Shown here: positions 8,957-64,000 of the stretch, in pieces
Layout: each line of letters opens with the position of its first letter
Position numbering within the stretch: the stretch's first letter is position 1
Assembly (NCBI RefSeq): GCF_016811235.1
Contig: NZ_JAFBID010000006.1
Location: 62,001 to 126,000, forward strand
DNA length: 64,000 bases
Reading direction: 5' to 3'
Source of the DNA: Microvirga arabica
GTDB taxonomy: Bacteria; Pseudomonadota; Alphaproteobacteria; Rhizobiales; Beijerinckiaceae
Position numbers and translations under genes: made by a program
Notes under the pieces: model-generated
What the model saw: the letters and a program-made list of their open reading frames with translations, nothing else
Told to the model about the DNA's origin: nothing
Database searches by the model: none

Positions 8957-9051
8957 CTATTCCTCCTTTGAGCAGGGCGTCTTGCGACGCTCACAAGAGG
9001 AACGGATGAGGGCGGACAAGGTTCTGACAGAATCCAGGACCTGTTGCGCCT

Positions 9052-22300: not shown

Positions 22301-24247
22301 ATGGCATTGGTCAAGACGTCCGAACTCGCGGGCAAGGGCAACTCACGTCCAGCCGGCGATGAAGCTGCCAATTCCAGCATGCCGCCTCCCTCTGTAAGGG
22401 GAGCGGCGTCCCAACGCCGGAACCTGGAGCGTGTCAGAGCCAGGCAACAGAAAGCTGCCGAACGCATCGGTGCTGCAACGGAGGAACTGGCGAGCGGCGT
22501 GGCCGAGGCTTCGTCGGCGGCCGAGGAGCTCCGGCGCTCCATGGAGCAGATCGCCAGCGGAGCCGAGGAAGCTGCCGGCGCCTCCCAGCAGTCGCTCTCG
22601 GCCATCGTGAGCCTCAGTGCCTCGTTTTCCGAGGCGCGCGCCCATGCTGAGGCGACGCGCACCAAAACCGCGGACCTTCAGAGCCTTCTCACCGAAACGG
22701 GAGCCCAGATCGGCACGTCCGTCACAGCCGTAGAGGCTAATGCGTCGCGCCAGCGGGTGATGGTCGACATCGTCTCGCTCCTCGAACAACAGGCAGCCGA
22801 GATCGGTGAGATCACCCGTGTGGTCGGAGACATTTCCGATCAGACCAATCTTCTGGCGCTGAATGCAGCCATCGAGGCGGCGCGGGCCGGAGAGAGTGGG
22901 CGCGGTTTTGCGGTCGTGGCCGACGAGGTGCGGGCTCTCGCCGGCGCTTCGGAGAAAAGCGCACAGGATGTCCAGACCCTCGCAGAAGGCATCGTCAGCG
23001 AGGTTCGTTCCGTTGCGGAACGGATCAGGGCGGCAGCCGAAACGGCATCGGGAGAGGCCCAGATCGGCCGTGCCGTGGTGACGGCCTTGGACAAGATTCG
23101 AACCGATGTGTCCCTTCTGACCGAGGGGAGCCAGGCCATCCTTGTGGCAGCTGTCGAAGCCGAAGCTGCCATCCGCGAGGCGCAGCGCGGGGCCGAGCAA
23201 GTGGCGAGTGCCGCCGAGGAGCAGGCCGCCGCCGCCGCCGAGGCTCAGCGGGCCGTCCAGCAGCAGAGTGCATCGCTCGATCAGAGCCAGCAGACCGCGC
23301 AGGCATTGGCTGCTCTCGCGGACGATCTTCAGGAGGGCGCGGCCGGTGCTGCCAGTGCCGAGCAGGTCGGTTCTGCCGCTGAGGAGTTGTCTGCGGCCAT
23401 TCAGGAACTCTCCGGGGCTTCCGGCGAGATCATGACGGCTGTCGATCAGATCAGCCGAGGCGCCCAGATGCAGGCTGCGGCCACGCAGCAGGCCAATGTG
23501 GCGATGGAGCAGATCGAGCGCGCGACCGCCGCATCGCAGGATGCGGCGAGCACCGCCATCAAACGGATCGAGACTCTTGCAGCCGATCTTCAGGATAATC
23601 GCACCACGACCATGAGGCTGGCCTCGGGCGTCGAGGAGGGCTTACGGGAGACGCAGGCCATGATCGGCCTCATGAGCGGCCTGGACGATTCCGGACGCCG
23701 CATCGAAAAGATCGTCGATGGCATCGCCCTCGTGGCCGTTCAGACCACCATGCTGGCCGTGAGCGGCTCCATCGAGGCCGCCCGAGCCGGCGAGGCCGGG
23801 CGTGGCTTCGCGATCGTCTCCGGCGACATCCGCAATCTGGCGCGGGATGCTTCCGAGAATGCCGACCGGATCAAGGATGTGGTTCGCCAGATCCGCGACC
23901 AGATCACCATCGTCAGGCGAGACCTAGAGCAGAGCGCTGCCATTGCCGCAGCCGAGGTTGCCAGGAACGCTCTGACGGCGGAGCGGCTGGGTGCGGTGGA
24001 GGCCGGCGTGCAGGCCATCCGTCAGGGAAGCGTCGCCATCCTGTCCGGCTCTGAGACGATTCTGACGGCAGTGCGCGAGGTCCGGCTCGGCACCCAACAG
24101 GTTGCCGCCGTGGCCGAGCAAGCCGGCAGTGCCGCCGCCCAGGCTGCCACCGCGGCGCGCCAGCAGGCGCGAGGAGCCGAGGATCTGGCAGCTGCAATTG
24201 AAGAGATCGCCTCTCTGGCCGACGAACTCCAGATGGCGGAGACTTGA
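22301..24247 (+). CDS. Cytoplasmic methyl-accepting chemotaxis protein with two signalling tips
   Basis: 648 residues from the ATG at 22301, with AGGGA 5 bases upstream. There is no membrane segment or sensor domain; almost all is Ala/Glu/Gln-rich coiled coil. A canonical CheA/CheW contact tip lies near 168-212 ([19 protein letters not shown], then [12 protein letters not shown]). A second, altered tip lies near 469-517 ([19 protein letters not shown], then [15 protein letters not shown]). The layout suggests two fused hairpins. It heads an operon with a triple CheW, CheB, CheR and CheA, and is presumably their dedicated receptor. Confidence 0.9.
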
Positions 24248-24251
24248 AGCC

Positions 24252-25718
24252 ATGACCCAGGCGGCCTCTGCGGCTGTCGCCCAGTCGTTTCTGACCGTTC
24301 AGGTCGGCGATGAGCGCTTCGCCCTTCCGACATCCGATGTGGCCGAAGTGATCCGTCCCCCGGCCGTGACCCGCGTCCCCCTCGGGCCCTCAAGCCTGCT
24401 CGGGGTAGCCAATCTGCGAGGTGCGGTGATGCCTGTGGTGTCGCTGCATCGCCTTCTCGGAGGCGAGGCTAGCCCCTCGTCGCATGCGCGCGTCGTGGTG
24501 ATCGACCGCGGCACCCCGGTCGGCCTCATGATCGACAGAGTGACCTCGCTTGGAGAAGCGGGTGTCGCTTCCTCAGACTCGGCTGCCGATGACAGCATGG
24601 GCACGCCTGCGCGGATGATCGATCTGGATACGCTGCTGGCCAAAGACTTCGGCAGCTTCACCCGCCGGGCTCAGCACCGGCAGGCTCAAGCTGCGACCGA
24701 CGGGCGGGATCGAACGGCTGCGGAGCAAAACCAGGTTGCGCTGGTGTGCTTTGCCGTGGCCGGGCAGGATTTCGCCCTGCCCCTCACCTCCGTTCGCGAG
24801 GTGGTGGCCCTGCCGGATGGTGTCGCCGTCGTCCCGCAGACGGACTCTGTCATGCTGGGTGTAACGTCCCTGCGCGGGCAGCTGCTGCCGCTGGTCTCCC
24901 TGCGCGCGCTCCTCGGGCTCCGGGCTGGCGGGCAGGGCGGTGAGCGATCCCGCGTGGTGGTGGCACGGATCGGCCAAGGGCTCGTGGGACTTGTCATCGA
25001 TGGCATGAAGGAAATCCTTCGCCTTCCTGACAGCGCCATCGATCCTGTGCCGGCCATCCTGACACGGGGGAATGCGGAGGCTCAGATCCAGGGCATCTGC
25101 CGTCTCGAAGGCGGACGGAGGCTGGTCTCGGTGCTGTCCACAAACCACCTGTTCAGGGATCAGGCGCTGATCGAGCAGATCACATCGCAAGCGGGGAAGA
25201 ACCACGACATGGACACAGCGGATGGTCCATCAAAGGGCGATGAGCAGTTCATCGTGTTCCAACTCGGCGGCGAGGAATACGGGCTGCCCATCGGGGTTGT
25301 CGATGAAGTGGTGCGCGTGCCCGACACGCTGACACGGCTGCCTAGGGCTCCCGCTTTCATCGAAGGCGTCATGAACCTGCGGGGCCGCGTCATTCCCGTG
25401 ATCGATCAGCGGCGGCGCTTCAGGTTCGAGGGCCACGGAGAACGGCGGCGCGAGCGCGTCGTCGTCGTCAGGATCGACCAGATGCAGGCCGGCTTCGTCG
25501 TCGATACCGTGTCGGAGGTTCTCAGCATTCCCCAAAGCCAGCTTCGCCCGACTCCCGATCTCGCCGCGGACGGGAGCCAGGTCATCGACCGCATCGCCAA
25601 TATCGAGGTCGAGGGAAGAATGATCCTCCTGCTCGATCCACGCGAGTTGCTGGACAGGGCGGAGAAGGATCTGCTCGCAGCCATGGGCCAGAGCGACCCG
25701 GAGCGGCCCGCTTCGTGA
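24252..25718 (+). CDS. Adaptor protein with three CheW domains
   Basis: 488 residues from the ATG at 24252, 4 bases after the receptor stop. Three CheW domains follow each other: about 10-135 (GVANLRGAVMPVVSLHRLLG), 160-305 (GVTSLRGQLLPLVSLRALLG) and 330-480 (GVMNLRGRVIPVIDQRRRF). Each keeps the NLRG-type core. CheW normally links receptors to CheA as one domain, so a fused trimer would fix the stoichiometry of an array. It overlaps the cheB start by 4 bases. Confidence 0.92.
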   Translation: MTQAASAAVAQSFLTVQVGDERFALPTSDVAEVIRPPAVTRVPLGPSSLLGVANLRGAVMPVVSLHRLLGGEASPSSHARVVVIDRGTPVGLMIDRVTSLGEAGVASSDSAADDSMGTPARMIDLDTLLAKDFGSFTRRAQHRQAQAATDGRDRTAAEQNQVALVCFAVAGQDFALPLTSVREVVALPDGVAVVPQTDSVMLGVTSLRGQLLPLVSLRALLGLRAGGQGGERSRVVVARIGQGLVGLVIDGMKEILRLPDSAIDPVPAILTRGNAEAQIQGICRLEGGRRLVSVLSTNHLFRDQALIEQITSQAGKNHDMDTADGPSKGDEQFIVFQLGGEEYGLPIGVVDEVVRVPDTLTRLPRAPAFIEGVMNLRGRVIPVIDQRRRFRFEGHGERRRERVVVVRIDQMQAGFVVDTVSEVLSIPQSQLRPTPDLAADGSQVIDRIANIEVEGRMILLLDPRELLDRAEKDLLAAMGQSDPERPAS

Positions 25719-49330: not shown

Positions 49331-49742
49331 CTCCTGTCTCAGGAAGGGAGGGGAGGCCATGCGGCATTGGTCGTTCTGAGCGGTAGTTTCCTCCCCGTCT
49401 CGCGAGCTTTCACAATGGGCACTGACTCGGTGGTCGGTCCAACGGGAAGATCCGTCGATGGCTAATCGGTATCGGCTTACTGTGGAGCAATGAAGGCGTT
49501 TATACCGAGATGCGTCCGAGTCCGGCCGCCTATGGCTCGCGGATGACACGCCGCAAATCGTGAATGCTACGAGGCGATTCAACTTCCTTGAGCAGGCACT
49601 ATCAGGCTCAAGGCCAAGGAAGCTGGTGTGTTCGTAGTGAGTTCCTGAACCGGTGCAGGTGGCGCCGCTAGGGGCCTTGCTGGGACCACTCAGACGAGCG
49701 CTGCGGATAGCGCAATGCCAACAATAGCTTAGAGCGGAATAA
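49331..49742. other. Intergenic region before tRNA-Ser
   Basis: About 410 bases. A rightward frame at 49458-49637 has a start codon and protein-like composition but carries an in-frame TGA at codon 12, suggesting a decayed small gene. The rest shows nothing recognisable, and no terminator for the cyclase gene was found. Confidence 0.4.
49458..49637 (+). pseudogene. Possible decayed small gene with in-frame stop
   Basis: ATG at 49458, TGA at 49491, then open to TAG at 49635. Readable pieces are MANRYRLTVEQ and, after the stop, RRLYRDASESGRLWLADD and FNFLEQALSGSRPRKL. The family is not recognised. Chance is possible in GC-rich DNA. Confidence 0.25.
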
Positions 49743-49832
49743 TGGCGGAGAGGGGGAGATTCGAACTCCCGATACGGTTGCCCGTATGCCGCATTTCGAG
49801 TGCGGTGCATTCAACCACTCTGCCACCTCTCC
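49743..49832 (-). tRNA. tRNA-Ser (anticodon CGA)
   Basis: 90-base gene read leftward, beginning GGAGAGG and ending CCTCTCC-G-CCA with encoded CCA. Anticodon stem CCGCA/TGCGG encloses CTCGAAA, giving anticodon CGA. The long variable arm (ATACGG, loop GCAA, CCGTAT) is typical of serine tRNAs, and the T arm GGGAG/CTCCC encloses TTCGAAT. Its 3-prime end faces left, away from the restriction genes. Confidence 0.97.
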
Positions 49833-50102
49833 GGGGTGCGAAGGCCGTCAGGCCCGCTGGTTGAGGCGGGGTGGATATCATGGGCTTCTTCAGTAGACGT
49901 GCAAGCGGCTGAGGCGTGCCGGACGCGCCGCAGAAGTGCCGCTAAGCTCTCTAGCCCAGCACTGGCTTACCGAGAGAGCAATTCAGGGAGATATACCAGA
50001 GATGCAAGCGTTATGCAATAACATTGCCATATCGTTTCCGTTTCCTTGCGACCCTGCTTAGCTTATGTTCGAGCCAAGACTCGAACAAAGGTTCAGGGGC
50101 TA

Positions 50103-51668
50103 ATGCTTACGGGTGAACTAAGAAACAAGATTGACCGTATTTGGGACGCCTTCTGGGCCGGAGGTATCGCCAATCCCCTCGAGGTGATCGAGCAAATCAC
50201 TTACCTGCTCTTTATCCGTGGCCTCGACGACGTGCACACGCGGGAGGAGAACAAGGCAAATCGGCTCCGGCGCCCTATGGAAAGGGTGATCTTTCCGGGA
50301 GGGAAGGACGAGCGCGGCCTTACCTTTGAGGAGATGCGCTGGTCGCGCTTCCGCAACAAGGCCCCGGCCGAGATGTTCAATATCGTCGGCGAGCATGTCT
50401 TCCCTTTCATCCGCTCTATGGCGGACGCGGACACCGCCCATGGGGCGCACATGAAGGGCGCGCGTTTTACCATCCCGACGCCCGCACTCCTCGCTAAAGT
50501 GGTCGACCTTCTAGCAGAGATCCCGATGGATGACCGGGACACCAAAGGCGACCTCTACGAATACATGCTCTCGAAGATCGCGAGCGCCGGTCAGAACGGG
50601 CAGTTCCGCACGCCGCGCCAAATCATCGCGCTCATGGTCGAGATGACGGCGCCGGGGCCCAGGGACGAGATCTGCGACCCAGCCGCGGGCACCTGCGGGT
50701 TCTTGGTTGGAGCCGGGGAGTATCTTCGTGACAACCACCCGGAGATCTTCCGGGACGAAGCCCTACGCCGTCATTTTCACGACAGCATGTTCCATGGCTT
50801 CGACTTCGATGGCACCATGCTGCGGATCGGCTCTATGAACATGATCCTGCACGGAGTCGAGAACCCAGACATCCGCTATCGGGACTCGCTCGCGCAGGAC
50901 AACAACGGTGATGCAGAGCGCTACAGCCTAGTCCTCGCCAATCCTCCCTTTGCGGGATCGCTCGATTACGAGACGACGTCTAAGGACCTGCTGAAAGTCA
51001 TCAAGACGAAGAAGACTGAGTTGCTGTTCCTCGTCCTCTTTCTCAAGCTCCTGAAGCCCGGCGGACGCGCCGCCGTGATCGTGCCGGATGGGGTGTTGTT
51101 CGGCTCCTCCACTGCGCACAAGACGATCCGAAAGATGTTAGTTGAGGACCACCGCCTCGACGGCATCGTGAAGCTGCCGTCGGGCGTGTTCCGCCCCTAT
51201 GCGGGTGTCTCAACCGCCATCCTGCTCTTCACCAAGACCAATTCAGGCGGCACCGACCAGGTCTGGTTCTACGACTGCCAGGCCGATGGCTTCTCCCTCG
51301 ATGACAAGCGCGTCCCACTGCTACCAGACGAGAAGCTTGGGCCGACGCCGAGCCGGAGTGAGGGCTCAAATTTCGTTAGTATCCCGCTGACCAATGACGA
51401 GCAGGCGAAGAACAACCTACCTGACATTGCAGCTCGCTGGCGCGAGCGGACCGGCACTGAGCGGAAGCGCAGCCGCACGGCACAAAGCTTCTGCGTGCCG
51501 AAGGCTGAAATCGCAGCGGCCGACTACGACCTCTCGCTCAACCGCTACAAAGAGGTGGTGCACGAAGCGGCTGAGCACCGCCCACCGCAGGAGATCATTG
51601 CCGAACTGAAAATGCTCGAGGCTGAGATCGCCGAGGGATTGTTGGAGTTGGAGGCCATGCTGCCGTGA
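50103..51668 (+). CDS. hsdM: Type I restriction-modification methyltransferase subunit HsdM
   Basis: 521 residues from the ATG at 50103 with AGGGG upstream; the frame extends to 50046 without a ribosome site. N-terminal HsdM helical domain (about 1-130), then the N6-adenine methylase core: DPAAGTCGFL (motif I, SAM) near residue 198 and NPPF (motif IV, catalytic) near residue 280. It methylates adenines in the target given by HsdS and joins HsdS and HsdR in the restriction complex. It is the first gene of the defence run right of tRNA-Ser. Confidence 0.95.
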   Translation: MLTGELRNKIDRIWDAFWAGGIANPLEVIEQITYLLFIRGLDDVHTREENKANRLRRPMERVIFPGGKDERGLTFEEMRWSRFRNKAPAEMFNIVGEHVFPFIRSMADADTAHGAHMKGARFTIPTPALLAKVVDLLAEIPMDDRDTKGDLYEYMLSKIASAGQNGQFRTPRQIIALMVEMTAPGPRDEICDPAAGTCGFLVGAGEYLRDNHPEIFRDEALRRHFHDSMFHGFDFDGTMLRIGSMNMILHGVENPDIRYRDSLAQDNNGDAERYSLVLANPPFAGSLDYETTSKDLLKVIKTKKTELLFLVLFLKLLKPGGRAAVIVPDGVLFGSSTAHKTIRKMLVEDHRLDGIVKLPSGVFRPYAGVSTAILLFTKTNSGGTDQVWFYDCQADGFSLDDKRVPLLPDEKLGPTPSRSEGSNFVSIPLTNDEQAKNNLPDIAARWRERTGTERKRSRTAQSFCVPKAEIAAADYDLSLNRYKEVVHEAAEHRPPQEIIAELKMLEAEIAEGLLELEAMLP

Positions 51669-52870
51669 ATACTCACAGCAAAATCATCACGGACGTCGCC
51701 CGAAGCCGACCATTAGGGGAGCTCCTCGAATTCAGGAACGAGATCGTTCACCCGAAAGATAAGCCAGTCGGACAGGCCGTGTTCGTTGGCTTGGAACATG
51801 TTGAGAGAGATACGGGGATACGCATCGGTTCCGAGCAGATTGAACTGGGCGGGATGACGGGACGACGCGCGCGCTTCAAAGAAGGAGACATCGTCTACGG
51901 GTATTTGAGACCATATCTCAATAAAGTGTGGATTGCTGAATTCGACGGCATATGTTCAGTCGACCAGTATGTCTTCAAGGTGAGTAGTAGCGTTGACCGA
52001 AACTATGTCGCGCATTTCCTGCGAAGCGATGCCTTTTTAAGAACCGCTCCGATCGACGCAGCTCCGGGGCAACTACCTCGCATACGATCAGGCGAGATTG
52101 CAGCTACTCCGATCCCACTCCCGCCGCTCGATGAGCAGCGTCAGATCGCAACTATCCTAGACAAGGCGGACGCGCTTCGCCGGAAGCGCAGGCGCACACT
52201 GAAGTTACTCAACGAACTGCTCCATTCAACTTTTATGGAAGTCTTTGGAAACGAAATTTTTGGCGCAGACCCAGAACGCTTTCAGCCGATTGCAAGCATT
52301 TCTACACTCCAAAATGGGGCTTATTTCCCTAAAGAGAAATACAGCTTATCCAAGTCTGGAGTAGAGATGGTTCATATGAGCGATGCGTTCAATGGTATCG
52401 TCAGTAGAGGGGAACTCAAGCGGGTAAATTGTAGCGCCGCAGATGTCGCAAAGTATGGCCTGCTCAACACAGATCTCCTGATTGCACGGCGATCGCTAAA
52501 TTTTGAGGGTGCGGCCAAACCGTGTTTGATTCCAAACTCCGAAGAACCTCTAATCTATGAATCATCGTTTATCAGGATACGCCCTCATTCAGAAGCCGTA
52601 AGGGCGGAATATCTGTTTTACTATTTATCAAATTCCTACGTGCGCCAAAAATACATTCTGCCATACATTACACAGTCGACTATATCCGGAATAAACCAGT
52701 CAAACTTATCTAAGATTCCAACTCTTGTGCCGACCATAGGAGAGCAAGAACGGTTTATTAATGCTCTGAATTCGATCCAGCGCCAGCGAACGAAGTCGTT
52801 ATCCGCACTTCCTGCTGCAAACGAGCTGTTCTCATCGCTTCAGCAACGCGCTTTTTCTCAGACGCCTTGA
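51665..52870 (+). CDS. hsdS: Type I restriction-modification specificity subunit HsdS
   Basis: 401 residues from a GTG at 51665 that overlaps the hsdM stop. Two target-recognition domains, each followed by a conserved helical spacer: first TRD about 10-150 and PIPLPPLDEQRQIATILDKA near residue 145-165; second TRD about 205-360, then TLVPTIGEQERFINALNSI. Each TRD reads one half of the bipartite target. The second TRD DNA (about 52200-52800) is clearly AT-richer than the flanks, as expected of exchanged TRDs. Confidence 0.93.
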   Translation: MNTHSKIITDVARSRPLGELLEFRNEIVHPKDKPVGQAVFVGLEHVERDTGIRIGSEQIELGGMTGRRARFKEGDIVYGYLRPYLNKVWIAEFDGICSVDQYVFKVSSSVDRNYVAHFLRSDAFLRTAPIDAAPGQLPRIRSGEIAATPIPLPPLDEQRQIATILDKADALRRKRRRTLKLLNELLHSTFMEVFGNEIFGADPERFQPIASISTLQNGAYFPKEKYSLSKSGVEMVHMSDAFNGIVSRGELKRVNCSAADVAKYGLLNTDLLIARRSLNFEGAAKPCLIPNSEEPLIYESSFIRIRPHSEAVRAEYLFYYLSNSYVRQKYILPYITQSTISGINQSNLSKIPTLVPTIGEQERFINALNSIQRQRTKSLSALPAANELFSSLQQRAFSQTP

Positions 52871-52887
52871 ACAGATGACGCCATAGC

Positions 52888-55800
52888 ATGTCTAACTTCA
52901 CCTTCCTCGCGGCCGAATTTGGAAACATTCATGATGCGGCGGTCGCAGCGGAGCGGCATGTAATTTCCGATCCGACAGCGGCAGCTTTTTTCGCAGGCAA
53001 GACTGTTGAGATCGCCGTCAAATGGACGTTCCGGAACGATCCAGGGCTCTCCCTGCCTTACCAGGACAACATCGCCGCGCTGCTGCACGAGCCGAGCTTC
53101 AAGCGGCTCGCGGGCGAGGCGGTGTTCGCCAAGGCGAAGTTCATCAACCGACTGCGCAACCGAGCTGTGCATGAGGAGAAGACGATCACGGTGGCTGATG
53201 CACTCGGCGCCGTGAAGGAGCTCTTTCATGTCTGTTTCTGGCTCGCCCGCACCTATGGCAAGGTCACGCGGCCGGCGGACGGCCTCGCCTTCGACCCCAA
53301 GCACCTGACTCGGCGCGAGGATGCGCTACGCACCGCCTTTGTGCACCTCAAACAGCAGCAGGCGGCGTTAGAGGCCAAGGACGGTGAGCTCACTGCACTC
53401 CTGCGGGACAAGACCCATCTCGACGTGGAGCTGAAGCGTCTTCGCGCCGAGGTAGAGGCGGCCCGAAGAGCTAACGTGGCAATCCCTGACCGGCACGACT
53501 ACAATGAGGCCGAGACCCGCGACCGCTTCATCGATTTGCTTCTCAGAGAAGCTGGCTGGGCGCTGGACCGGCCAGAGGATACTGAGTTCGAAGTCCAGGG
53601 CATGCCGAATGCCCAGGGCATCGGCTATGTGGATTACGTGCTCTGGGGCGTGGACGGCAAGCCGCTCGGCCTCGTCGAGGCTAAGGCGACGAAGCACAGC
53701 GCCCAGAAAGGTCAGCAGCAGGCGAAGCTCTACGCTGACTGCCTCGAGAAGCGCTTCGGCCAGCGCCCAGTGATCTTCCTCTCCAACGGCTACGAGCACT
53801 GGATTTGGGACGACACCCGCTACCCGCCGCGCCAGATCGGTGGCTTTTACAAGCGTGACGAGCTCGAATTACTGATCCAGCGCCGCACGAGCCGCAAGGT
53901 TCTCGCCGCAGAGCGCATTGATCGCAAAATCGTCGAACGACCCTATCAGCACCGCGCTATCCGCGCCATCGCGAAAAGCTTCGAGGAGCATTTGGAGCGC
54001 AAAGCGTTGCTCGTGATGGCGACCGGCTCCGGCAAGACCCGCACGGTGATTGCCCTCGTGGACTTGATGATGCGGGCCGGTTGGGTGAAGCGCGTTCTTT
54101 TCCTGGCGGACCGGGTTTCCCTCGTGAACCAGGCAGTCGGCGCCTTCAAGGCGCACTTGCCGGATTCTGCACCGGTGAACCTCGTGACGGAACGGACGGT
54201 GGAGGGGCGGGTCTTCCTCTCCACATATCCGACCATGATGAACCTCATAGACGGGAAGGCACAAGGCACGCGCCAGTTCGGCCCCGGCCATTTCGATCTC
54301 GTTGTCATCGACGAGGCCCACCGCTCCGTCTATCAGCGTTACCGCGCCATCTTCGAGTATTTCGACAGCTTCCTCGTCGGCCTCACCGCGACGCCGAAGG
54401 AGGACATCGACCGGAACACCTATGCATTGTTCGACCTGGAGGATGGCGTGCCTACGGACGCCTATACCCTCGACGAGGCGGTGGCTGATGGGCACCTGGT
54501 GCCGCCGCAGGCCATCTCCGTCCCGCTGAAGATCATACGCTCCGGCCTGCGCTACGATGACCTCTCGGAGGAGGAGAAAGATCAGTGGGACGCGCTCGAA
54601 TGGGGCGAGGAGGAGATCCCCGACAGCGTTGAAGCCGCTGAAGTCAACAAGCGGCTGTTCAATGAGGACACGGCCGACCAGGTCATCGCCCACTTTATGG
54701 AAAAGGGCGTGAAGGTCGAGGGTGGTGACCGCATTGGGAAGACCATCATCTTCGCGAAGAACCAGCCCCATGCCGAATTCATCGAGAAGCGCTTCAATGC
54801 CGCCTATCCGCATTTTGCCGGGCACTTCACCCGCGTCATCACCTACAAGACCGACTACGCGCAAAGCCTGATCGATGACTTTTCCGAGAAGGACAAGGCT
54901 CCGCACGTGGCGATCTCAGTCGATATGCTGGATACGGGCATCGATGTGCCGGAGGTGGTGAACCTCGTCTTCTTCAAGCCCGTGCGCTCCAAGACCAAGT
55001 TCTGGCAGATGATGGGTCGTGGCACGCGACTCTGCCCCGACCTCTTCGGCCCCGGGCAGGACAAGGAGTTCTTCCGCGTCTTCGACTATTGCGCGAACCT
55101 CGAGTTCTTTGGCGCCAACCCGGAGCTGAAGGACGCGTCCGCAGGTAAGTCCCTGTCCGAGCGGCTGTTCCAAGCCCGGCTCGATTTGGTGCGGGCACTT
55201 GATGAAAAGCAGAGCAAGAGCAACGGCGCCGTGGAAGGCGAGGTCGAGGTGCGTCAGGATGCGCTCCGAGTTCTGCAGGAGACCGTTGCCGGGATGAACC
55301 CGGACAACTTTATCGTCCGCCAGCGCCGACGCACGGTTGAGAAATATGCCCGCGCCGAGGCCTGGGCAGTTATTGACGCCTCGGCGCACGATGAACTCGT
55401 GACCGAGCTCGCGCCGCTGCCAAGCGCGATACGGCACGGAACTGAAGAGGCCAAGCGTTTCGACCTGCTGATGTTCTCCCTTAAGCTCGCGCTTCTGCAG
55501 GGCTCGAAGCGATTCGACGGGCTGAGGAAGCAGCTAATCCAAATCGCGTCCGCACTAGAGGATCAATCCGGCATTCCGGGTATCGCCGCCCAGGCGGAGC
55601 TGATCGAGGCCGTGCAAACCGACCACTGGTGGGAGGGCGTGACGGTGCCTCTCCTAGAGTTGGTTCGTCTGCGCCTTCGTGATCTCGTCCAGCATATCGA
55701 GAAATGCTCGCGGGCAATTGTCTACTCGAACTTCGCCGATGAAGTCGGAGAAGAGGTTGAGCATACATTGCCGCAGGTTGGGGAGGTTGATTTCGTGCGC

Positions 55801-56259
55801 TTTAAGCAGAAGGCGAGGGCCTTTCTGAAGCAGCACGAGGACCATATCGCTCTCCGTAAGTTGCGCTACGGCAAACCACTGACATTGACGGACCTCTCGG
55901 AACTCGAATCCATGCTAGTCACAGCAGGCATCGCCCGCACGGAGGACATCGCGCGCGCTAAGGAGACGAGCCAGGGTCTCGGCCGGTTCATCCGGTCCTT
56001 AGTGGGGTTAGAGCGCAAGGCTGTCAGTGAAACATTCTCGGCCTTCATCGCTAACAGCATGGCGACCAAGGACCAGATCGAGTTCATCAGCATGGTCGTG
56101 GAGCACCTAACCGCGCGCGGCGTGATGGAGCCAAGTTCACTCTACGAGAGTCCCTTCACGGACATTGCGCCGCAAGGCCCGGAGCAAGTGTTTGATGAAA
56201 GCACAGTGACCCAGCTGTTTCGGACGATCGAGCAGCTCAACGATGCCGCAGTCGCCTGA
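52888..56259 (+). CDS. hsdR: Type I restriction enzyme endonuclease/translocase HsdR
   Basis: 1123 residues. N-terminal DUF4145-like helical domain (about 1-130) and a coiled coil (about 150-195), then the PD-(D/E)XK nuclease: Asp near 249 (YVDYVLWG) and VEAKAT near 264-268. The SF2 helicase motor has Walker A ATGSGKT near 378-384, DEAH at 475-478 and LTATP. Motif VI appears as QMMGRGTRL. The C-terminal helical domain binds HsdM. It translocates DNA and cuts unmodified DNA. The three hsd genes form one operon; the 18-base gap before it carries no terminator. Confidence 0.95.
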   Translation: MSNFTFLAAEFGNIHDAAVAAERHVISDPTAAAFFAGKTVEIAVKWTFRNDPGLSLPYQDNIAALLHEPSFKRLAGEAVFAKAKFINRLRNRAVHEEKTITVADALGAVKELFHVCFWLARTYGKVTRPADGLAFDPKHLTRREDALRTAFVHLKQQQAALEAKDGELTALLRDKTHLDVELKRLRAEVEAARRANVAIPDRHDYNEAETRDRFIDLLLREAGWALDRPEDTEFEVQGMPNAQGIGYVDYVLWGVDGKPLGLVEAKATKHSAQKGQQQAKLYADCLEKRFGQRPVIFLSNGYEHWIWDDTRYPPRQIGGFYKRDELELLIQRRTSRKVLAAERIDRKIVERPYQHRAIRAIAKSFEEHLERKALLVMATGSGKTRTVIALVDLMMRAGWVKRVLFLADRVSLVNQAVGAFKAHLPDSAPVNLVTERTVEGRVFLSTYPTMMNLIDGKAQGTRQFGPGHFDLVVIDEAHRSVYQRYRAIFEYFDSFLVGLTATPKEDIDRNTYALFDLEDGVPTDAYTLDEAVADGHLVPPQAISVPLKIIRSGLRYDDLSEEEKDQWDALEWGEEEIPDSVEAAEVNKRLFNEDTADQVIAHFMEKGVKVEGGDRIGKTIIFAKNQPHAEFIEKRFNAAYPHFAGHFTRVITYKTDYAQSLIDDFSEKDKAPHVAISVDMLDTGIDVPEVVNLVFFKPVRSKTKFWQMMGRGTRLCPDLFGPGQDKEFFRVFDYCANLEFFGANPELKDASAGKSLSERLFQARLDLVRALDEKQSKSNGAVEGEVEVRQDALRVLQETVAGMNPDNFIVRQRRRTVEKYARAEAWAVIDASAHDELVTELAPLPSAIRHGTEEAKRFDLLMFSLKLALLQGSKRFDGLRKQLIQIASALEDQSGIPGIAAQAELIEAVQTDHWWEGVTVPLLELVRLRLRDLVQHIEKCSRAIVYSNFADEVGEEVEHTLPQVGEVDFVRFKQKARAFLKQHEDHIALRKLRYGKPLTLTDLSELESMLVTAGIARTEDIARAKETSQGLGRFIRSLVGLERKAVSETFSAFIANSMATKDQIEFISMVVEHLTARGVMEPSSLYESPFTDIAPQGPEQVFDESTVTQLFRTIEQLNDAAVA

Positions 56260-56849: not shown

Positions 56850-57524
56850 TTAGTCAGAAGCCTCATCGTCTCCGCTGTAAAGAGCACGATATTGGTCTAC
56901 AAATTTCTGAACACGATGGCGGGAGAAGTCGTGGATGCGTTCCTCTAGGTGCGTGATTGCATTCTCCCGAGCTTCACCCTCAAATCCGGTATGCACGATC
57001 CACTGAGCTACGTTGCCCTCTGGTGTTGCGCCAGCAGTCTGGAGAGCGCCAGAGACGAGCGGCAAGCCATGCATGTGCGACCATTGCCTAGTCCACACTC
57101 GCCACCTTGTGCGCTCAATGTGATCGCGGGGTAGGCCAGAAAACGCTCCTGGCGGCAGAAAACCAACAGCGACATTGAGGATAGGAGGGCTAGTTGGGTC
57201 GCTCAGTGGCACATCCCAGAGGATGACAGCGTCTTCTCGTCCGATGCACCCATTCTGCAATCTGTCGGCAAAGCGCTCAGTAAGAAGTGTTGGGCAGCGG
57301 TCTGAGCTTTTACCGAGACCAGTCCAGCGCTCGGGCCAATCTGATGGGGGCAGCGATTCAAGCAGTTCCACAATAGCCTCCAATGAGCTGGATGTTCCTT
57401 CGCCAGCTCCGATCTCGCGAGCACGGCGACGAGAAAGGATGCCAGCATGGTCTAGAGCGGCCTGCCACACAGGACCGAATAAGGTTTCTAGCCGGGTTTT
57501 GACGTCAGGCATTTCAGTAGTCAT
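56850..57524 (-). CDS. Unrecognised protein in the defence island, 224 residues
   Basis: From the ATG at 57524 with AGGA 8 bases upstream; the open frame continues to 57605 without support. Segments seen: VKTRLETLFGPVWQAALDHAG, RREIGAGEGTSS-like basic-acidic linker, DAVILWDVPLSDPTSPPI and a C-terminal helix ERIHDFSRHRVQKFVDQY. The acidic strand ILWDVPLSD resembles nuclease or ATPase strands, but no motif set is complete. It lies 55 bases upstream of the 145-residue gene on the same strand. Function unknown. Confidence 0.6.
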   Translation of the reverse strand: MTTEMPDVKTRLETLFGPVWQAALDHAGILSRRRAREIGAGEGTSSSLEAIVELLESLPPSDWPERWTGLGKSSDRCPTLLTERFADRLQNGCIGREDAVILWDVPLSDPTSPPILNVAVGFLPPGAFSGLPRDHIERTRWRVWTRQWSHMHGLPLVSGALQTAGATPEGNVAQWIVHTGFEGEARENAITHLEERIHDFSRHRVQKFVDQYRALYSGDDEASD

Positions 57525-58082
57525 CGCAGCTATCCTAGGCGGGAGGCGCCTAGGTGTCAACGGCCGCGCGCCCGTCATAAAGCGCTTGAACAATGACGTT
57601 TGCACTAAGCTCCGCTGCTTCGACGAAGTGACCGCTCAACAGAGATCTGCGCCTTGCGATTCCTTTGGTTGGGATAAAAAGCTTTGGCAGGAGTCGCAGA
57701 GCCATCTTAATATGCCAGCACCACGCGCTGTTGCTGATACTTCCGTAAAAGAACTTGAGGAATTGAAGCGCACCAGTCATGAGCGCTTCAGCTTGTTGGA
57801 TAAGAAGAACATTCAAATCTAATGCTGTTAGGAATAAGTGCTCCGGTCACGTGTTGCACTGGGGATGGCGGCCAGTAAGCTCGCTTCAAGCGTATAGCTG
57901 ATCGCGGAGTGTTTAGACCAAAGTCTCAATTGCATGAACAGCGGCACCTCAACTTCCTTAAGCGAAAATAACCATATCTCGCTAAGCTTTGTCGCAACGA
58001 TGTTTTATCTCTGGCGCCCATTCATCTGTCGTGCTTATTTCGTAAAATCAGGCACTTAATATCGTAGACAGAAGACAGGCGC
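57525..58082. other. Intergenic region upstream of the giant helicase
   Basis: About 560 bases, moderately AT-rich, between divergent genes. It must hold promoters for both directions. Short frames on both strands (57550-57816 leftward and 57175-57822 rightward, overlapping) lack ribosome sites and recognisable products. Several TAT/ATA-rich spots lie at 57960-58060, but I cannot fix a promoter. Confidence 0.45.
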
Positions 58083-61000
58083 ATGGATGGAGCCACAACC
58101 GGGCACATTGATGATTTTCTGCTGAACCGCTGCCTTTCGATCGACCTTGAGGTTGATCCGGGTCAAGCGAAGATTTTCGCCTTTGCCGCCGTTCGCCGCC
58201 AAGACCAGGAGAAGGTGGTATTCCGAAATGGGAACCAGGCGGTCGCCCTTGACCGGCTCGAAAGCCTCGCCTCCGGTGCCGACTTCCTGCTTGGTCACAA
58301 CATTATCCGATTTGATCTCCCTCACCTCGTAGCGGTGAGGCCCCGCCTCGCGCGACTAGCCACAAAGCCAATAGACACACTTTGGCTGAACCCGCTAGCT
58401 TTCCCGCGCAATCCATACAACCATCTAGTCAAACACCATCACGATGGGCGGTTGCACGCAGGGCATGTAAATGACCCGGAGCTCGACGCGCGCCTTGTGC
58501 TCGATGTGCTGGCCAACCAGATCGCAGCCTTTGCAACCCTGGCGAAGGAGAGGCCTGCCGCTCTTATCGCCTATCACTACCTGACCACTTGCATGCAGGG
58601 GAGTGACGGGTTCGACGCACTATTTACCGACATACGCAAAGCACCTCGACCCGGCGTGGCACAGGCCGAGAAGGCGATGAAGGAGCTGCTTGATGGTCAG
58701 GCATGCGCTTCGCGTATCCACCAAACATTGAATCGCCTGTCCTCACCACAACTCAGTTGGCCGATGGCCTATGCACTTTCGTGGATCTCGGTCGCAGGCG
58801 GGGATTCCGTTATGCCACCCTGGGTGCGGGCGCAGTTCCGTGAGGCCTCGCTAATCGTTAGGCATTTGCGCGACCGCGCGTGCGACGACCCAGGCTGCCA
58901 TTGGTGCCGCGAGAAGAACAATCCGAAGAAAGCCCTATCGCGCTGGTTCGGCTTCGACAGCTTCCGACCGGAGCCAAAGGACGATGTCGGTCGCCCGCTG
59001 CAGGAGCGCATTGTCGCCGAAGCAATGGGAGGGAAATCCGTTCTCGGTATCCTGCCCACTGGCACCGGGAAGTCCGTCTGTTACCAGATTCCGGCGCTGG
59101 CGCGGTTCGACAAGATCGGCGCACTTTCCGTCGTCATCTCGCCTCTGGTCGCACTGATGGCCGATCAAGTGCAAGGCCTTGCGCGTCACGGAATCAGTGG
59201 CTGCGTTACGATCAACGGGCTTCTCTCAATGCCAGAGCGCCATGCTGCGTTGGATCAGGTGCGGTTGGGCGAAGCGGCCATGCTGCTGATATCACCCGAG
59301 CAGCTACGCAGCCCCTCAGTGCGTGCAGTCCTGGCGCAGCGCGAGGTCGGCTACTGGATCCTGGATGAAGCCCACTGTGTCTCAAAATGGGGGCATGATT
59401 TCCGGCCCGATTATCGTTACGTCTCGCGCTTCATCCGTGAGTATTCCGGGGATCAAGAGCCCGCGCCGGTGATCTGCCTGACTGCGACGGCAAAGCCGGA
59501 GGTGGTGCGCGACATCCGTGATCACTTCCAGTCCCGCCTGGGAGTGGAACTGCTTCTGCTCGACGGCGGTGCGACCCGCCAGAACCTCGCCTTCGAGGTG
59601 CACGAGACCCACCGCAGCCGTAAGCTCGCCGACATTCTTGATATGATTGAACGCGCCCTGCCGCGCGATGGTGCGTCAGGCGCCGTGGTTTATTGCGCCA
59701 CGCGTGCTACGACTGAACGCGTCGCGAGCTTCCTGCAACAACAGGGGTTAGCAGCGGACTTCTTCCATGCTGGCCTGACGCCCGAACGCAAGCACGAGGT
59801 GCAGGAGCGTTTCCGTGTCGGTGAGCTGCGGGTCATTGCGGCCACCAACGCCTTCGGTATGGGGATCGACAAACCCGATATCAGGCTGGTGGTGCATGGC
59901 GACATTCCGGGCTCCCTTGAGAATTACCTGCAGGAGGCCGGCCGGGCCGGACGTGACCGCGATCCGGCGGTCTGCGTGCTTTTGTTCACTACCGAGGATG
60001 TCGAACGGCAATTCTCTCTCAGCGCCCGCTCGCGTCTGGCGCGCCATGAGATCAGCGCGATCCTGAAGGCGCTCCGGCGCTTGGATACCCGTGGAAAGCA
60101 CAATGGTGAGGTCGTCGCCACCCCGGGCGAGATAGTTCGGGAAGAGACGGCGCAGGAATTCGAGCGCGATAACGCCACTGACGACACGCGGGTCAAGACC
60201 GCCGTTGCCTGGCTCGAAGAATCAACTCTGCTGACCCGGGAGGAAAACCGGGTGCAGGTCTTCCCTTCCTCGCTGCGTATCCGCACGCTGACAGAGGCCG
60301 AGGAAATTCTCTCCAAGATTGAGCTGACCAGAACTCGGCGTAAGCAACTACTGGATTTGGTGCGGCATCTAATGACGGCCTCCCCCGATGCTGGTGTCTC
60401 GACCGACGAGCTTTCCGGCGCCAGTGGTCTGACCGGTGGCGCACTTCGGAAGGCATTGTCCGATCTCGAAGCACTTGGTATCGCGACGGACGATACGGCC
60501 ATTACGATCTTCGTTCATGTCGGGGTCGAGGGGGCGTCGAAACAGCGGTTCCAGGTCGCTTCGGCATTGGAGGCCGCGTTGATCGACGCTATGCGCGAGG
60601 CGTCGCCAGATGCTGAGGGCGGCGAAGCGCAGCCTCTGCATCTTGCCGCGACCTGTCAGGTTCTACGCGATCAGGGCCATCTCGGCGTGCGCCCGGACCT
60701 GGTTGAGGCGCATCTGCGAAGCTTGGCGCAGGACGGGCGCGACGAGGACGGCGGACGCGGCAACATTCATTTGCGCAAGGTGAATCGAAACACTTGCTTC
60801 GTGCGACTGCAGCGGTCATGGGAAATGGTGAGCCGGACGGCGGAGATCAGGCGTCGAGGGGCGGAGCTTTTAATCCAACATCTCGAAGCGCTAGTGGCAA
60901 AAGGCACGCGCGGTAAAGATGTCCGGGTCGAGACCACGATGGGCAAGATGCAGTCCGCCATCACAGGGGACGTTTTCCTGAAGGGTTCAGTCCGGGATGT

Positions 61001-63206
61001 GACTAAGTTGCTCGGCAGGGCACTCATGTGGCTCCATGAACAGGGCGTGATCACCCTTGGACGAGGCCTGACGATCTTCCGCCCCGCGATTACCGTTCAC
61101 CTGCGCCCCGGGGGTGGACAGTTTACTCAGAAGGATTTCCTCCCTCTCGAGGATCATTACTGCGAACAGACCGTCCAGACCCATATCATGGCGGCCTATG
61201 CCGAGCGCGGGCTGACCTCGATGAAAGAGGCAGAGAGGCTCGCGCAGGACTATTTCCAGCTGGACAAAGGAGCCTTCCTGAAGCGCTGGTTGCCGCATCG
61301 AGCGGGCGATTTGGACCGTCAAACCACACCGGAAAGCTGGCGGCAGATTGTTGAAAGTCTCGGAAATTCCGTGCAGTCGAAGATCGTTGCCGATGATCGC
61401 GAACAGACCAACGTGCTGGTGCTCGCAGGACCCGGCTCCGGAAAAACACGGGTGCTGGTGCATCGCGTTGCCTATCTGATCCGGGTCAAGCGTGAAGATC
61501 CGCGTGGCATACTTGTTCTAACATACAACCGCCATGCCGCAGTCGAGATCCGCAAGCGGCTGAAGGAGCTGATCGGCGATGATGCCAACAGCGTAACCGT
61601 CTCGACCTGTCACGCTCTAGCGATGCGACTAGTCGGTGCAAGCTTTGCGGGACAGGTCGAGGCGGATACCCCACATGACTTCGACAAAATTGTAATGGAG
61701 GCCGTCACCCTGCTGAAAGGCGAAGGCCTATCGAAGGTCGAGGCCGAGGCGCTCCGCGAAACCCTGATTCAGGGCTATCGCTGGATCCTCGTTGACGAAT
61801 ATCAGGACATCGGCCCCGAGGAATATGCCCTGATCGCCGCCGTAGCAGGCCGCTCGTTCGATGACCCGGACCAGCGCCTGAGCCTTTTTGCCGTGGGTGA
61901 TGACGACCAGAACATCTATGCCTTCGCAGGTGCCTCGATCGATTACATCCGGCGCTTCGAAGCGGATTACTCAGCGAAGCCCACCTATCTGATTGAGAAC
62001 TACCGTTCGACGCGGGCAATTATCGATGCAGCAAACCGCGTGATTGCGCCAGCCGCTAATCGGATGAAGACTGGCCATGACATCACCATCAATCGCGCCC
62101 GCGCTAAAGCCCCTGAAGGCGGCGTGCTGGCCTCGCAGGATCCGGTCGCGCAGGGCCGGGTTCAGCTTTTGCGCACAGCACCGGGCCTTGCAGCGCAGGC
62201 CAACGCCGCCGTCGATGAACTGGTCCGTCTGTCACAACTGGTCCCCGACTGGTCTTGGTCAAAGGCCGCGATCATCGCACGGGAATGGCGGCTTCTAGAG
62301 CCAGTGCGGAGCTATTGTGAGGCGCTCGACATCCCGGTTCAACTCGCAAGCGAGGCCATGCCTCCATTCTGGCGTTTACGGGAAGCTCAGGAATTCCTCA
62401 ACTTCCTCAAGGCGGAGCCTGCGAAGATGATTGCGGCCGAGGCCGTGAGAGGGTTTATCTCCAGGCAGCCTTCGAACCATTGGTGGGATCGGATCTCGGA
62501 CGGTATCACGGCACTCGACGCCGAACTCGATGGGAAAGCTGTTCCGGTCGCAGATATCATCGAGCTGGTGGTCGAATGGACTCGGGACACTCGTCAGGAG
62601 CAACGAGGATTGCTGCTTTTGACCGCGCATCGCGCCAAAGGCCTAGAGTTTGACGATGTCGTCATCCTTGACGGCGGCTGGGATCGATCCTCGAAGGGGG
62701 AGGACCGCGATGCCCCACTCCGGCTGTTTTACGTCGCCATGACGCGGGCAAAGCGCAGCCTCGCGATCGTTTCAATGCAGGGTCGGCATCCGATCTTGCA
62801 AGATGCCGCAGCAACCTTACTGCAGCGGCAGATCACCCCAGATGAGAGAGCCCAGGCGGATTGTGGTTTGCAGTATCAGACCGTAGAACCACGCATGGTG
62901 GATCTGTCCTGGGTAGGCAGGCAGGCGGCAAACCACCCGGCCCATCAGGCTCTCGCTCGGATACAAACCGGTGATCCTATCGAACTGATAAAGTGCGATG
63001 GACGCTGGGAGATTCGCAATGAAAAGGGAGTGACTATTGGACGGATGGCTCAGAGCTACACGCCGCCCACCGGCTCGCGCTTCATTCGAGGCAAGGCCAG
63101 CGCAATCATCCGTTGGCGTAAGGTCGACAACGCAGAGGATTTCCGCGGCGCTCTTCGGCGCGAAGCTTGGGAGGTTGTCCTCCCAGAGTTGGTTTTCCGG
63201 CATTGA
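58083..63206 (+). CDS. Giant exonuclease-RecQ-UvrD fusion helicase
   Basis: 1707 residues. Residues about 15-145 are a DEDD-type 3-to-5-prime exonuclease: Asp21/Glu23 (SIDLEVD), Asp78 (GHNIIRFDLP) and Asp135 (NDPELDAR). A RecQ-type SF2 helicase follows with GILPTGTGKSVCYQIPA near 322-337, LDEAHCVSKWGHDFRPDYRY near 426 and a QEAGRAGRD box. A winged-helix-like middle (about 750-1100) leads to a second motor, an SF1 UvrD helicase with AGPGSGKTRVLVHR near 1115, VDEYQDIGPEEY near 1237, GDDDQNIYAFAG and YVAMTRAKRSL. Two helicases of different superfamilies plus a nuclease suggest processing of foreign or stalled DNA. It has no ordinary RecQ zinc/HRDC tail. Context suggests defence. Confidence 0.9.
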   Translation: MDGATTGHIDDFLLNRCLSIDLEVDPGQAKIFAFAAVRRQDQEKVVFRNGNQAVALDRLESLASGADFLLGHNIIRFDLPHLVAVRPRLARLATKPIDTLWLNPLAFPRNPYNHLVKHHHDGRLHAGHVNDPELDARLVLDVLANQIAAFATLAKERPAALIAYHYLTTCMQGSDGFDALFTDIRKAPRPGVAQAEKAMKELLDGQACASRIHQTLNRLSSPQLSWPMAYALSWISVAGGDSVMPPWVRAQFREASLIVRHLRDRACDDPGCHWCREKNNPKKALSRWFGFDSFRPEPKDDVGRPLQERIVAEAMGGKSVLGILPTGTGKSVCYQIPALARFDKIGALSVVISPLVALMADQVQGLARHGISGCVTINGLLSMPERHAALDQVRLGEAAMLLISPEQLRSPSVRAVLAQREVGYWILDEAHCVSKWGHDFRPDYRYVSRFIREYSGDQEPAPVICLTATAKPEVVRDIRDHFQSRLGVELLLLDGGATRQNLAFEVHETHRSRKLADILDMIERALPRDGASGAVVYCATRATTERVASFLQQQGLAADFFHAGLTPERKHEVQERFRVGELRVIAATNAFGMGIDKPDIRLVVHGDIPGSLENYLQEAGRAGRDRDPAVCVLLFTTEDVERQFSLSARSRLARHEISAILKALRRLDTRGKHNGEVVATPGEIVREETAQEFERDNATDDTRVKTAVAWLEESTLLTREENRVQVFPSSLRIRTLTEAEEILSKIELTRTRRKQLLDLVRHLMTASPDAGVSTDELSGASGLTGGALRKALSDLEALGIATDDTAITIFVHVGVEGASKQRFQVASALEAALIDAMREASPDAEGGEAQPLHLAATCQVLRDQGHLGVRPDLVEAHLRSLAQDGRDEDGGRGNIHLRKVNRNTCFVRLQRSWEMVSRTAEIRRRGAELLIQHLEALVAKGTRGKDVRVETTMGKMQSAITGDVFLKGSVRDVTKLLGRALMWLHEQGVITLGRGLTIFRPAITVHLRPGGGQFTQKDFLPLEDHYCEQTVQTHIMAAYAERGLTSMKEAERLAQDYFQLDKGAFLKRWLPHRAGDLDRQTTPESWRQIVESLGNSVQSKIVADDREQTNVLVLAGPGSGKTRVLVHRVAYLIRVKREDPRGILVLTYNRHAAVEIRKRLKELIGDDANSVTVSTCHALAMRLVGASFAGQVEADTPHDFDKIVMEAVTLLKGEGLSKVEAEALRETLIQGYRWILVDEYQDIGPEEYALIAAVAGRSFDDPDQRLSLFAVGDDDQNIYAFAGASIDYIRRFEADYSAKPTYLIENYRSTRAIIDAANRVIAPAANRMKTGHDITINRARAKAPEGGVLASQDPVAQGRVQLLRTAPGLAAQANAAVDELVRLSQLVPDWSWSKAAIIAREWRLLEPVRSYCEALDIPVQLASEAMPPFWRLREAQEFLNFLKAEPAKMIAAEAVRGFISRQPSNHWWDRISDGITALDAELDGKAVPVADIIELVVEWTRDTRQEQRGLLLLTAHRAKGLEFDDVVILDGGWDRSSKGEDRDAPLRLFYVAMTRAKRSLAIVSMQGRHPILQDAAATLLQRQITPDERAQADCGLQYQTVEPRMVDLSWVGRQAANHPAHQALARIQTGDPIELIKCDGRWEIRNEKGVTIGRMAQSYTPPTGSRFIRGKASAIIRWRKVDNAEDFRGALRREAWEVVLPELVFRH

Positions 63207-63641
63207 GGGGCGCATCATGATCTCGTTGGAACGACGAAGTGGCTGGTTGCAATTGTCAGAGTTATGAATGAGACCATGCCGCGAGAAAGATTGTGGATGA
63301 ATCTAACCAATATAAAACGTCTAGAGCCTCACCAGATTGTCCGGATCCGACAGGGCTTAACTTGCGCCAACTTCGACTCCCGCGAGAATGACTTTTTTCT
63401 GGCAATTTCCACGTGACTACCGAGTGTGACGCAGGGCATGAGCGAGAACAATCAACGGCGCGCCCGAATTAAGGCTATATTGGAGCTGAGCGAGATCCTT
63501 CATGAACCGCTTTGATCGCTACTCGTGTTAACCTATTTCACCTGAATACCGCTTCGTTTCATCATGCTGTCGTTGCCAGCAGAAGCCGGCTACGGCTTTA
63601 ATGAGCCACTTAAGCTAGATAAATTACAATCAGGTAAGATT
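63207..63641. other. Intergenic region before the partial HNH nuclease gene
   Basis: 435 bases. The only small frame of note is a 25-codon one at 63439-63516 (MSENNQRRARIKAILELSEI, then LHEPL) with AGGG just upstream, too short to call. A short repeat-like motif GCCGGCTACGGC occurs near 63585. No terminator or clear promoter was seen. Confidence 0.4.
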
Positions 63642-64000
63642 ATGCCGTGGGGACCTTTCCAAGAGCAACAACTCTACAATCGGCGACGTGATATCCACGC
63701 CGTCTATGGAGGACAACAACAAGGCGGCATCTGCACGCCGGGTGAGCACACCGTCGTAATCGTCTTCACTGGCGAGAGCGGTGAGCAGCACGGCTATGCG
63801 GACGGCTGGACGAACGAAGGCACCTTTCGCTACTTTGGCGAGGGTCAAGTTGGGGAAATGGTCTTCCAACGTGGCAATCGCGCCATCCGCGACCATCTCA
63901 TGGACGGCAAGGACCTCCTCGTCTTCCAGACGAGGGGCCGGGAAGGAGTGCGGTTTCTAGGGCAGTTCGAATGTGCTGGTTACAGCTTCGAGATGGCACC
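63642..64000 (+). CDS. Restriction endonuclease-like protein with SRA-type domain, 5-prime part (cut by window end)
   Basis: 119 codons are open from the ATG at 63642 to the window edge. The start MPWGPFQEQQLYNRRRDIHA, then GGQQQGGICTP, FTGESGEQHGYADGW, YFGEGQVGEM and GNRAIRDHLMDGKDLLVF match the YDG/SRA-like N-terminal domain found in many bacterial HNH (McrA-type) restriction enzymes, which read modified cytosine. The HNH part would be beyond the window. A leftward frame at 63630-63896 over the same DNA is a shadow. Confidence 0.8.
   Translation, partial: MPWGPFQEQQLYNRRRDIHAVYGGQQQGGICTPGEHTVVIVFTGESGEQHGYADGWTNEGTFRYFGEGQVGEMVFQRGNRAIRDHLMDGKDLLVFQTRGREGVRFLGQFECAGYSFEMA

Follow-up and report, generated by a model that had tools for sequence, protein, structure and literature searches.

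An exonuclease-RecQ-UvrD fusion protein as a possible single-gene defence system in a Microvirga island

The combination of helicase and nuclease activities is a recurrent theme in DNA repair and defence. In WRN, a 3′-5′ exonuclease domain of the DEDDy type precedes a RecQ motor on one chain, without a UvrD motor. In DinG the sole motor is an XPD-type helicase. RecBCD and AddAB unite motors and a nuclease in one machine. Helicase-nuclease defence is usually spread over several genes, as in Gabija, Zorya and the RecBCD-like machines. Gabija consists of two genes, one for the nuclease GajA and one for the UvrD-like helicase GajB; its nuclease is of a different kind and it has no RecQ motor.

In Microvirga arabica a single gene (58083..63206, + strand of the window, the whole 64,000-nucleotide stretch of contig NZ_JAFBID010000006.1 that was analysed) encodes a chain of 1707 aa which, by ORF analysis and family alignments, carries a DnaQ-like (DEDD) exonuclease, a RecQ motor, a linker of ~440 aa, a UvrD motor and a short C-terminal region, in that order. 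Domain searches and alignments confirm the original prediction of a 1707-residue reading frame with a DEDD-type exonuclease, a complete RecQ and a complete UvrD on one chain. The protein is probably a single-gene helicase-nuclease, borne on islands and plasmids, that protects the host, or else the mobile element carrying it, from foreign DNA as this enters or replicates, a reading to which we give a probability of roughly 0.6. It derives from the neighbours and the island context, the biochemistry being drawn from the enzyme families.

Three enzyme parts on one chain

The exonuclease domain (58110..58532, +; residues about 10-150) has an RNase H-like exonuclease fold with four acids, which places it among the DnaQ-like (DEDD) enzymes. 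Its conserved residues are D21, E23, G71-H72-N73, D78, K117, N130 and D135. Conservation was scored in 101 of the 111 family ORFs, those of at least 1450 aa with near-duplicates kept in, and across these long members the catalytic residues of all three enzymes are near-invariant. The four acids of the exonuclease are kept in 97/97, 97/97, 100/100 and 99/101 long members. A PDB sequence search with a less diverse alignment (A3) returned nothing better than E 0.26 for this part, and one with a more diverse alignment (A7) reached Plex9.1 at 3.8e-5 and DinG at 5.8e-4. Pfam PF03104 matches it at best at 3.2e-5 and reaches E<=1 in 8 of 24 members, and Foldseek by itself gave no match at E<=0.001.

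In DEDDh and DEDDy enzymes the general base is a His or a Tyr. The fusion family has neither: among the 100 long members with a residue at position 130, the fifth of the exonuclease, it is Asn in 99 and Lys in one, and profile alignments set Asn130 opposite the His of TREX1-like Plex9.1 and of S. aureus DinG, both solved structures. The DEDD residues first read from the sequence thus stand as regards the four acids, but they do not make up a standard DEDDh/y site. The missing general base could mean weak or absent activity. The Asn would suit a pseudo-enzyme that has kept metal and DNA binding and lost catalysis, leaving a two-motor remodeller that blocks foreign DNA without degrading it. Such a loss, which is compatible with the other readings, appears rather unlikely: near-invariance of the four metal-binding acids is unusual for a dead nuclease and argues against a dead relic, and Lys117, present in 100 of the 101 long members, could substitute as the base.

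Between exonuclease and RecQ the family alignment shows four conserved cysteines (208, 267, 272 and 275; 58704..58907, +), kept in 97-98 of the 101 long members; several of the most distant family members lack some of them. They probably form one metal site, possibly for zinc. The RecQ-type SF2 motor follows (58929..60017, +; residues 283-645), with Walker A at 325-331, DEAH at 428-431, an aromatic-rich loop at 434-444 that is conserved across the 101 long members, and motif VI at 617-625. It passes the cut-off of the RecQ subfamily model TIGR00614 (292.1 vs 219.8 bits) and falls short of that of the housekeeping equivalog TIGR01389 (340.7 vs 640.2 bits). No Pfam match to RQC or HRDC follows the motor at E<=0.01. 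The source genome has another recQ, scoring 739.5 bits against TIGR01389, and a separate recQ is present in all 30 carrier genomes tested from among the best 80 loci described below (29 above the curated cut-off and one just below). The TIGR01389 score and these separate recQ genes rule out an ordinary housekeeping RecQ.

The linker (60018..61352, +; residues 646-1090) is perhaps an array of winged-helix-like modules, as suggested by a structure model of residues 640-1096 (pLDDT 80.3, pTM 0.51). The matches of this model in Foldseek are weak, none at E<=0.001, and several are to proteins of the winged-helix type, among them Cdt1, PadR and RTP; a search of the linker against PDB sequences gave no match at E<=10. 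The UvrD-type SF1A motor (61353..62777, +; residues 1091-1565) has Walker A at 1115-1122, DEYQD at 1238-1242, GDDDQ at 1272-1276, NYRS at 1306-1309 and motif VI at 1550-1556, all invariant or nearly so in the 101 long members. It passes the PF00580 cut-off (144 vs 23 bits) and does not reach those of the UvrD-type equivalogs PcrA (170.3/911.2), UvrD (155.4/1144.45) and Rep (121.9/951.45 bits). Both motors are complete and their motifs intact. The C-terminal region (62778..63203, +; residues 1566-1707), to which no function is assigned, is among the least conserved parts of the family alignment.

The dN/dS of the gene is 0.11 against the copy of Microvirga sp. VF16 and 0.09 against that of Rhizobium altiplani, which indicates purifying selection. 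In the VF16 copy (L003:15001-20121) the annotated start of WP_246777380.1 lies 507 nt late within the ORF, so the annotated protein is without the exonuclease domain. An antisense 'hypothetical protein' is called across the true start.

Distribution, island and neighbours

The family has a fixed architecture and is widespread, occurring in Pseudomonadota, Bacteroidota, Campylobacterota and cyanobacteria. When GTDB genomes were scanned with the exonuclease part as query (tblastn E<=1e-3), at least 550 relatives were found among at least 595 candidate stretches, yet the database records examined name the protein solely as a RecQ helicase. The best 80 of these relatives (loci L015-L094) were retained and examined for the presence of the complete fusion. 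A single ORF of at least 1450 aa is present in 72 of the 80 and all six test motifs in 69, and 8 copies appear broken, which is compatible with defence genes, dispensable cargo or sequencing errors. Partial plasmid matches in Phocaeicola/Bacteroides, Pseudanabaena and Aliarcobacter, considered as split or two-gene forms, are long fusion ORFs on inspection, and one in Sphaerotilus is a lone UvrD-type helicase.

The gene is accessory, rare and patchy. With the source genome counted each time, carriers number 2/48 genomes in the genus (E<=1e-100), 1/199 in the family (E<=1e-200), and 3/397 in the order and 15/398 in the phylum (both E<=1e-150). The second carrier in the genus shares coordinates with a plasmid record of Microvirga sp. 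VF16. One other family (f81), where the fusion looked frequent and a core locus seemed promising at first, has 6 carriers in 74 genomes (E<=1e-150), which rules out such a locus there.

Among 72,556 plasmid records, 38 match (tblastn E<=1e-60), 19 of them over at least 80% of the query, and the matches run from alpha- and gammaproteobacteria to cyanobacteria. The idea of a phage gene is rejected on the phage records: of 50,697 searched, 25 have a match, never at 80% coverage, and all 20 of the matches listed cover the RecQ part only. IMG/VR yielded 26 matched loci, of which five (L095-L099, two cut by the contig end), on putatively viral contigs, hold a family ORF; the other 21 (L100-L120) gave no blastp match to a family ORF at 1e-10. 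On the Thiothrix plasmid pTfr153 (L006:19375-25091) the fusion gene lies ~4 kb from annotated Cas6 and Cas7d of a type I-D CRISPR system.

In the source genome the gene resides in an island of ~30.7 kb between two copies of tRNA-Ser. A repeat search of the contig identified the left flanking repeat of 147 bp (49741..49887, -), which contains the whole tRNA-Ser(CGA). The same 147 bp recur without a mismatch past the end of the window, at a distance of 30,690 bp (80431-80577 when counted in window positions; L134:18432-18578, L134 being a locus on the same contig). Integration at the 3′ end of a tRNA normally repeats only part of the tRNA gene. Here the identical copies comprise the whole gene and upstream DNA, and they flank an island that is presumably integrative. 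The restriction genes that the original prediction saw beside the fusion are in the same island: HsdM, the methylase of a type I restriction-modification system (50046..51668, +), its specificity subunit HsdS (51665..52870, +), its endonuclease HsdR (52888..56259, +), and an HNH nuclease gene resembling the PADLOC type IV REase (63564..64000, +, running on in L134:1565-2467). A second island protein has an HNH match below threshold (16.6 vs 21.4 bits). Further genes of the island encode a UDG-like protein, a tyrosine recombinase, an NYN protein, an SMC/LmuB-like ATPase and a topoisomerase. The ATPase gene (L134:12413-14761) adjoins the topoisomerase gene and is a possible further defence gene. 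An orphan ORF of 251 aa between HsdR and the fusion gene (56850-57605, -) has no Pfam, NCBIfam or PADLOC match at E<=0.01.

The neighbours of homologues are rich in defence models. In a first set of 20 loci with six ORFs each (120 of 140 picked), 131 PADLOC families are matched at E<=1e-20, and 117 ORFs (of 138 picked) from control regions of the same 20 contigs match two (mad3 with three members, mad2 with one); as the models overlap, family counts overstate gene counts. Among the 25 families listed for the first set are Lamassu, Hhe, DISARM DrmD, type III R-M, Gabija, RT, PD-T4-6, MkoA, mad6 and several PDC candidates, the GajA and GajB models each being matched by one of the 120 ORFs. A further 120 ORFs, which flank 24 other loci and form the second set, match 98 families, the 25 listed including Zorya, DpdE and type IV restriction. 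Together the sets cover 44 of the 80 loci and were scored for defence models only. Nor are the loci independent of one another: L016-L020 are closely related and have a neighbour in common, and over 18 kb L041 (second set) and L042 (first set) are 99.7% identical. By cluster, the five PDC-S36 matches are NOV_C proteins of the related loci L016-L020; the NOV_C-type gene lies divergently upstream of the fusion at about 8903-9778 (-), and the L016 copy matches PDC-S36 at 2.7e-128.

The original prediction had allowed that homologues might sit mainly in core loci, which this survey of their neighbours does not bear out. A self-contained, single-gene element borne on islands is supported by the patchy distribution, the defence-enriched neighbours and the separate recQ of the carriers. 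No conserved partner gene accompanies the family, the largest neighbour cluster occurring in 13 of 91 loci; an example of this cluster, read from sequence alone, resembles an ABC transporter ATPase. Of the other clusters that were checked, one is an integrase, one an HNH_2 protein and one a WYL protein. In the subgroup L021-L024 (Pfam checked for L024) a cluster of WYL-type regulators lies just upstream of the fusion. Another nuclease-helicase fusion, of RNase_H_2 and AAA_11/AAA_12, is found near the family member of L021 (L021:4251-7523, -).

The gene has also moved without its neighbours. A unit of 5392 bp (57831..63222, +) is common to the source contig and plasmid pMVF16-5 of Microvirga sp. 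VF16 at 95.1% identity, begins 252 bp before the start codon, ends 16 bp after the stop codon, and has the fusion gene as its only conserved long ORF. In VF16 it lies between a topoisomerase gene, with an IS630 transposase gene intervening, and tRNA-Ser, whereas in the source contig the counterpart of that topoisomerase gene (87% identity at the DNA level) and tRNA-Ser are adjacent without the unit between them, from which its independent movement follows. The IS630 gene (L003:13625-14581) directly adjoins the helicase unit, and two transposase genes of the IS6 family, both oriented alike (L003:8224-8922 and 23727-24425), flank the topoisomerase-helicase-tRNA stretch. These IS6 and IS630 elements may have been the vehicles of an IS-assisted movement. 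Among close relatives, 208 locus pairs have a stretch of homology that reaches 3.5 kb or more at 78% or above, and 125 of them have more than 2 kb of flank on both sides; for 106 of the 125 the longest such stretch stops no more than 500 bp from each end of the gene. As these pairs are not independent, and as divergence is faster in intergenic DNA, which by itself shortens homology at gene ends, the result is supportive of transfer gene by gene but is not proof of it.

The fusion could instead be an accessory repair or recombination enzyme of mobile elements, an exonuclease-helicase of the WRN kind to which a UvrD motor has been added and which processes forks, gaps or recombination intermediates of the island, the plasmid or the host. 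All three domain types (RecQ, UvrD and DnaQ-like) belong to housekeeping repair, the fusion occurs on large plasmids, and topoisomerase genes are found both in its island and close to the VF16 copy. Repair of this kind is nevertheless improbable, since the neighbours are strongly enriched in defence models (the only kind scored), the distribution is patchy, the carriers tested already possess a recQ and the gene occurs without shared neighbours. The defence reading is weakened in its turn, as residence in an island is guilt by association and islands also hold repair and transfer genes. The lack of a conserved partner, and of any self/non-self module found for the family, likewise tells against it.

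A proposed mode of action

The original prediction had two helicases of opposite superfamilies acting on invading DNA from both strands. Motors of the same polarity starting from one duplex end cannot act like RecB and RecD. According to one report, E. coli RecQ and UvrD both work on 3′ overhangs, with limited activity on 5′ overhangs (PMC1684258); on that account both motors of the fusion should mainly run 3′-to-5′, opposite superfamily does not mean opposite polarity, and the picture of a RecBCD-like machine, with each strand served by its own motor and both travelling in one direction, does not follow.

For a defence protein we infer a different substrate and order of action. The linker and the Cys4 modules would seat the protein on a DNA structure, not on a sequence: a 3′ tail, a gap, a fork or a D-loop. 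The RecQ motor would open the duplex 3′-to-5′, and the DnaQ-like domain, if active with Asn130, would trim the 3′ end thus exposed. Running with the same polarity, the UvrD motor would work the other arm or strip proteins such as RecA, so that the two motors might serve two arms from a gap, fork or D-loop. The foreign molecule would then be unable to replicate, recombine or circularise.

A special case of defence would be an anti-plasmid or anti-conjugation system that targets single-stranded or rolling-circle DNA from conjugation and shields resident plasmids and islands. The presence of the fusion on large plasmids and in an integrative island points this way, as does the absence of most of the fusion from phage records, and 3′-to-5′ motors with a 3′ exonuclease would suit single-strand gaps and displaced strands. 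This narrower role is doubtful, as chromosomal copies lie among anti-phage genes too. The wider version of the defence reading, to which we assign somewhat less than even odds, would be an immune protein that crosses phyla, in which one polypeptide is the whole system: a DEDD-Asn nuclease of a new type and two same-polarity motors would sense the replication or recombination structure of foreign DNA and dismantle the target, the gene spreading singly between islands and plasmids.

Comparison with described systems

Being encoded by one gene, with three conserved active sites, the machine lends itself to cloning and testing. It could reveal an immunity that recognises DNA structure without modification marks, and with it one could ask whether Asn can stand in for the general base of a working DEDD nuclease. 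The separate parts are known. A literature search (without preprints and with few subscription papers) found no description of the three-part single-gene arrangement, of its life in islands or of the Asn variant, all of which appear new as far as searched.

PADLOC 2.0.0 matches the fusion protein with 83 families at E<=0.01, and for each of the best 25 of the 83 the strongest stretch lies within one motor. The fusion resembles Gabija as a defence helicase paired with a nuclease, and its UvrD part matches the GajB models (best 5.1e-56), but the best stretches of these matches cover the UvrD part only. In the same way the RecQ part resembles DpdF of the Dpd system and PsyrT, matching their models at 1.1e-110 and 5.7e-87, whereas the matches stop short of the exonuclease and UvrD parts; the NCBIfam DpdF cut-off is not reached (201.7 of 550), and no other Dpd proteins are among the island proteins scanned. 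As in RecBCD and AddAB, motors are combined with a nuclease. In contrast to those machines, the fusion is one chain, and both its motor types act mainly on 3′ overhangs (PMC1684258). No Pfam match to the PD-(D/E)XK nuclease of AddAB and RecBCD was found in it at E<=0.01. S. aureus DinG differs in the His of its exonuclease, opposite Asn130. WRN shares with the fusion an exonuclease placed before RecQ on one chain and a similar RecQ part (phmmer E about 1e-45), and differs from it in the UvrD motor, the Asn at the fifth exonuclease position and the absence of an RQC/HRDC match. Judged from its domains, the fusion is best described as a WRN-like module joined to a UvrD motor.
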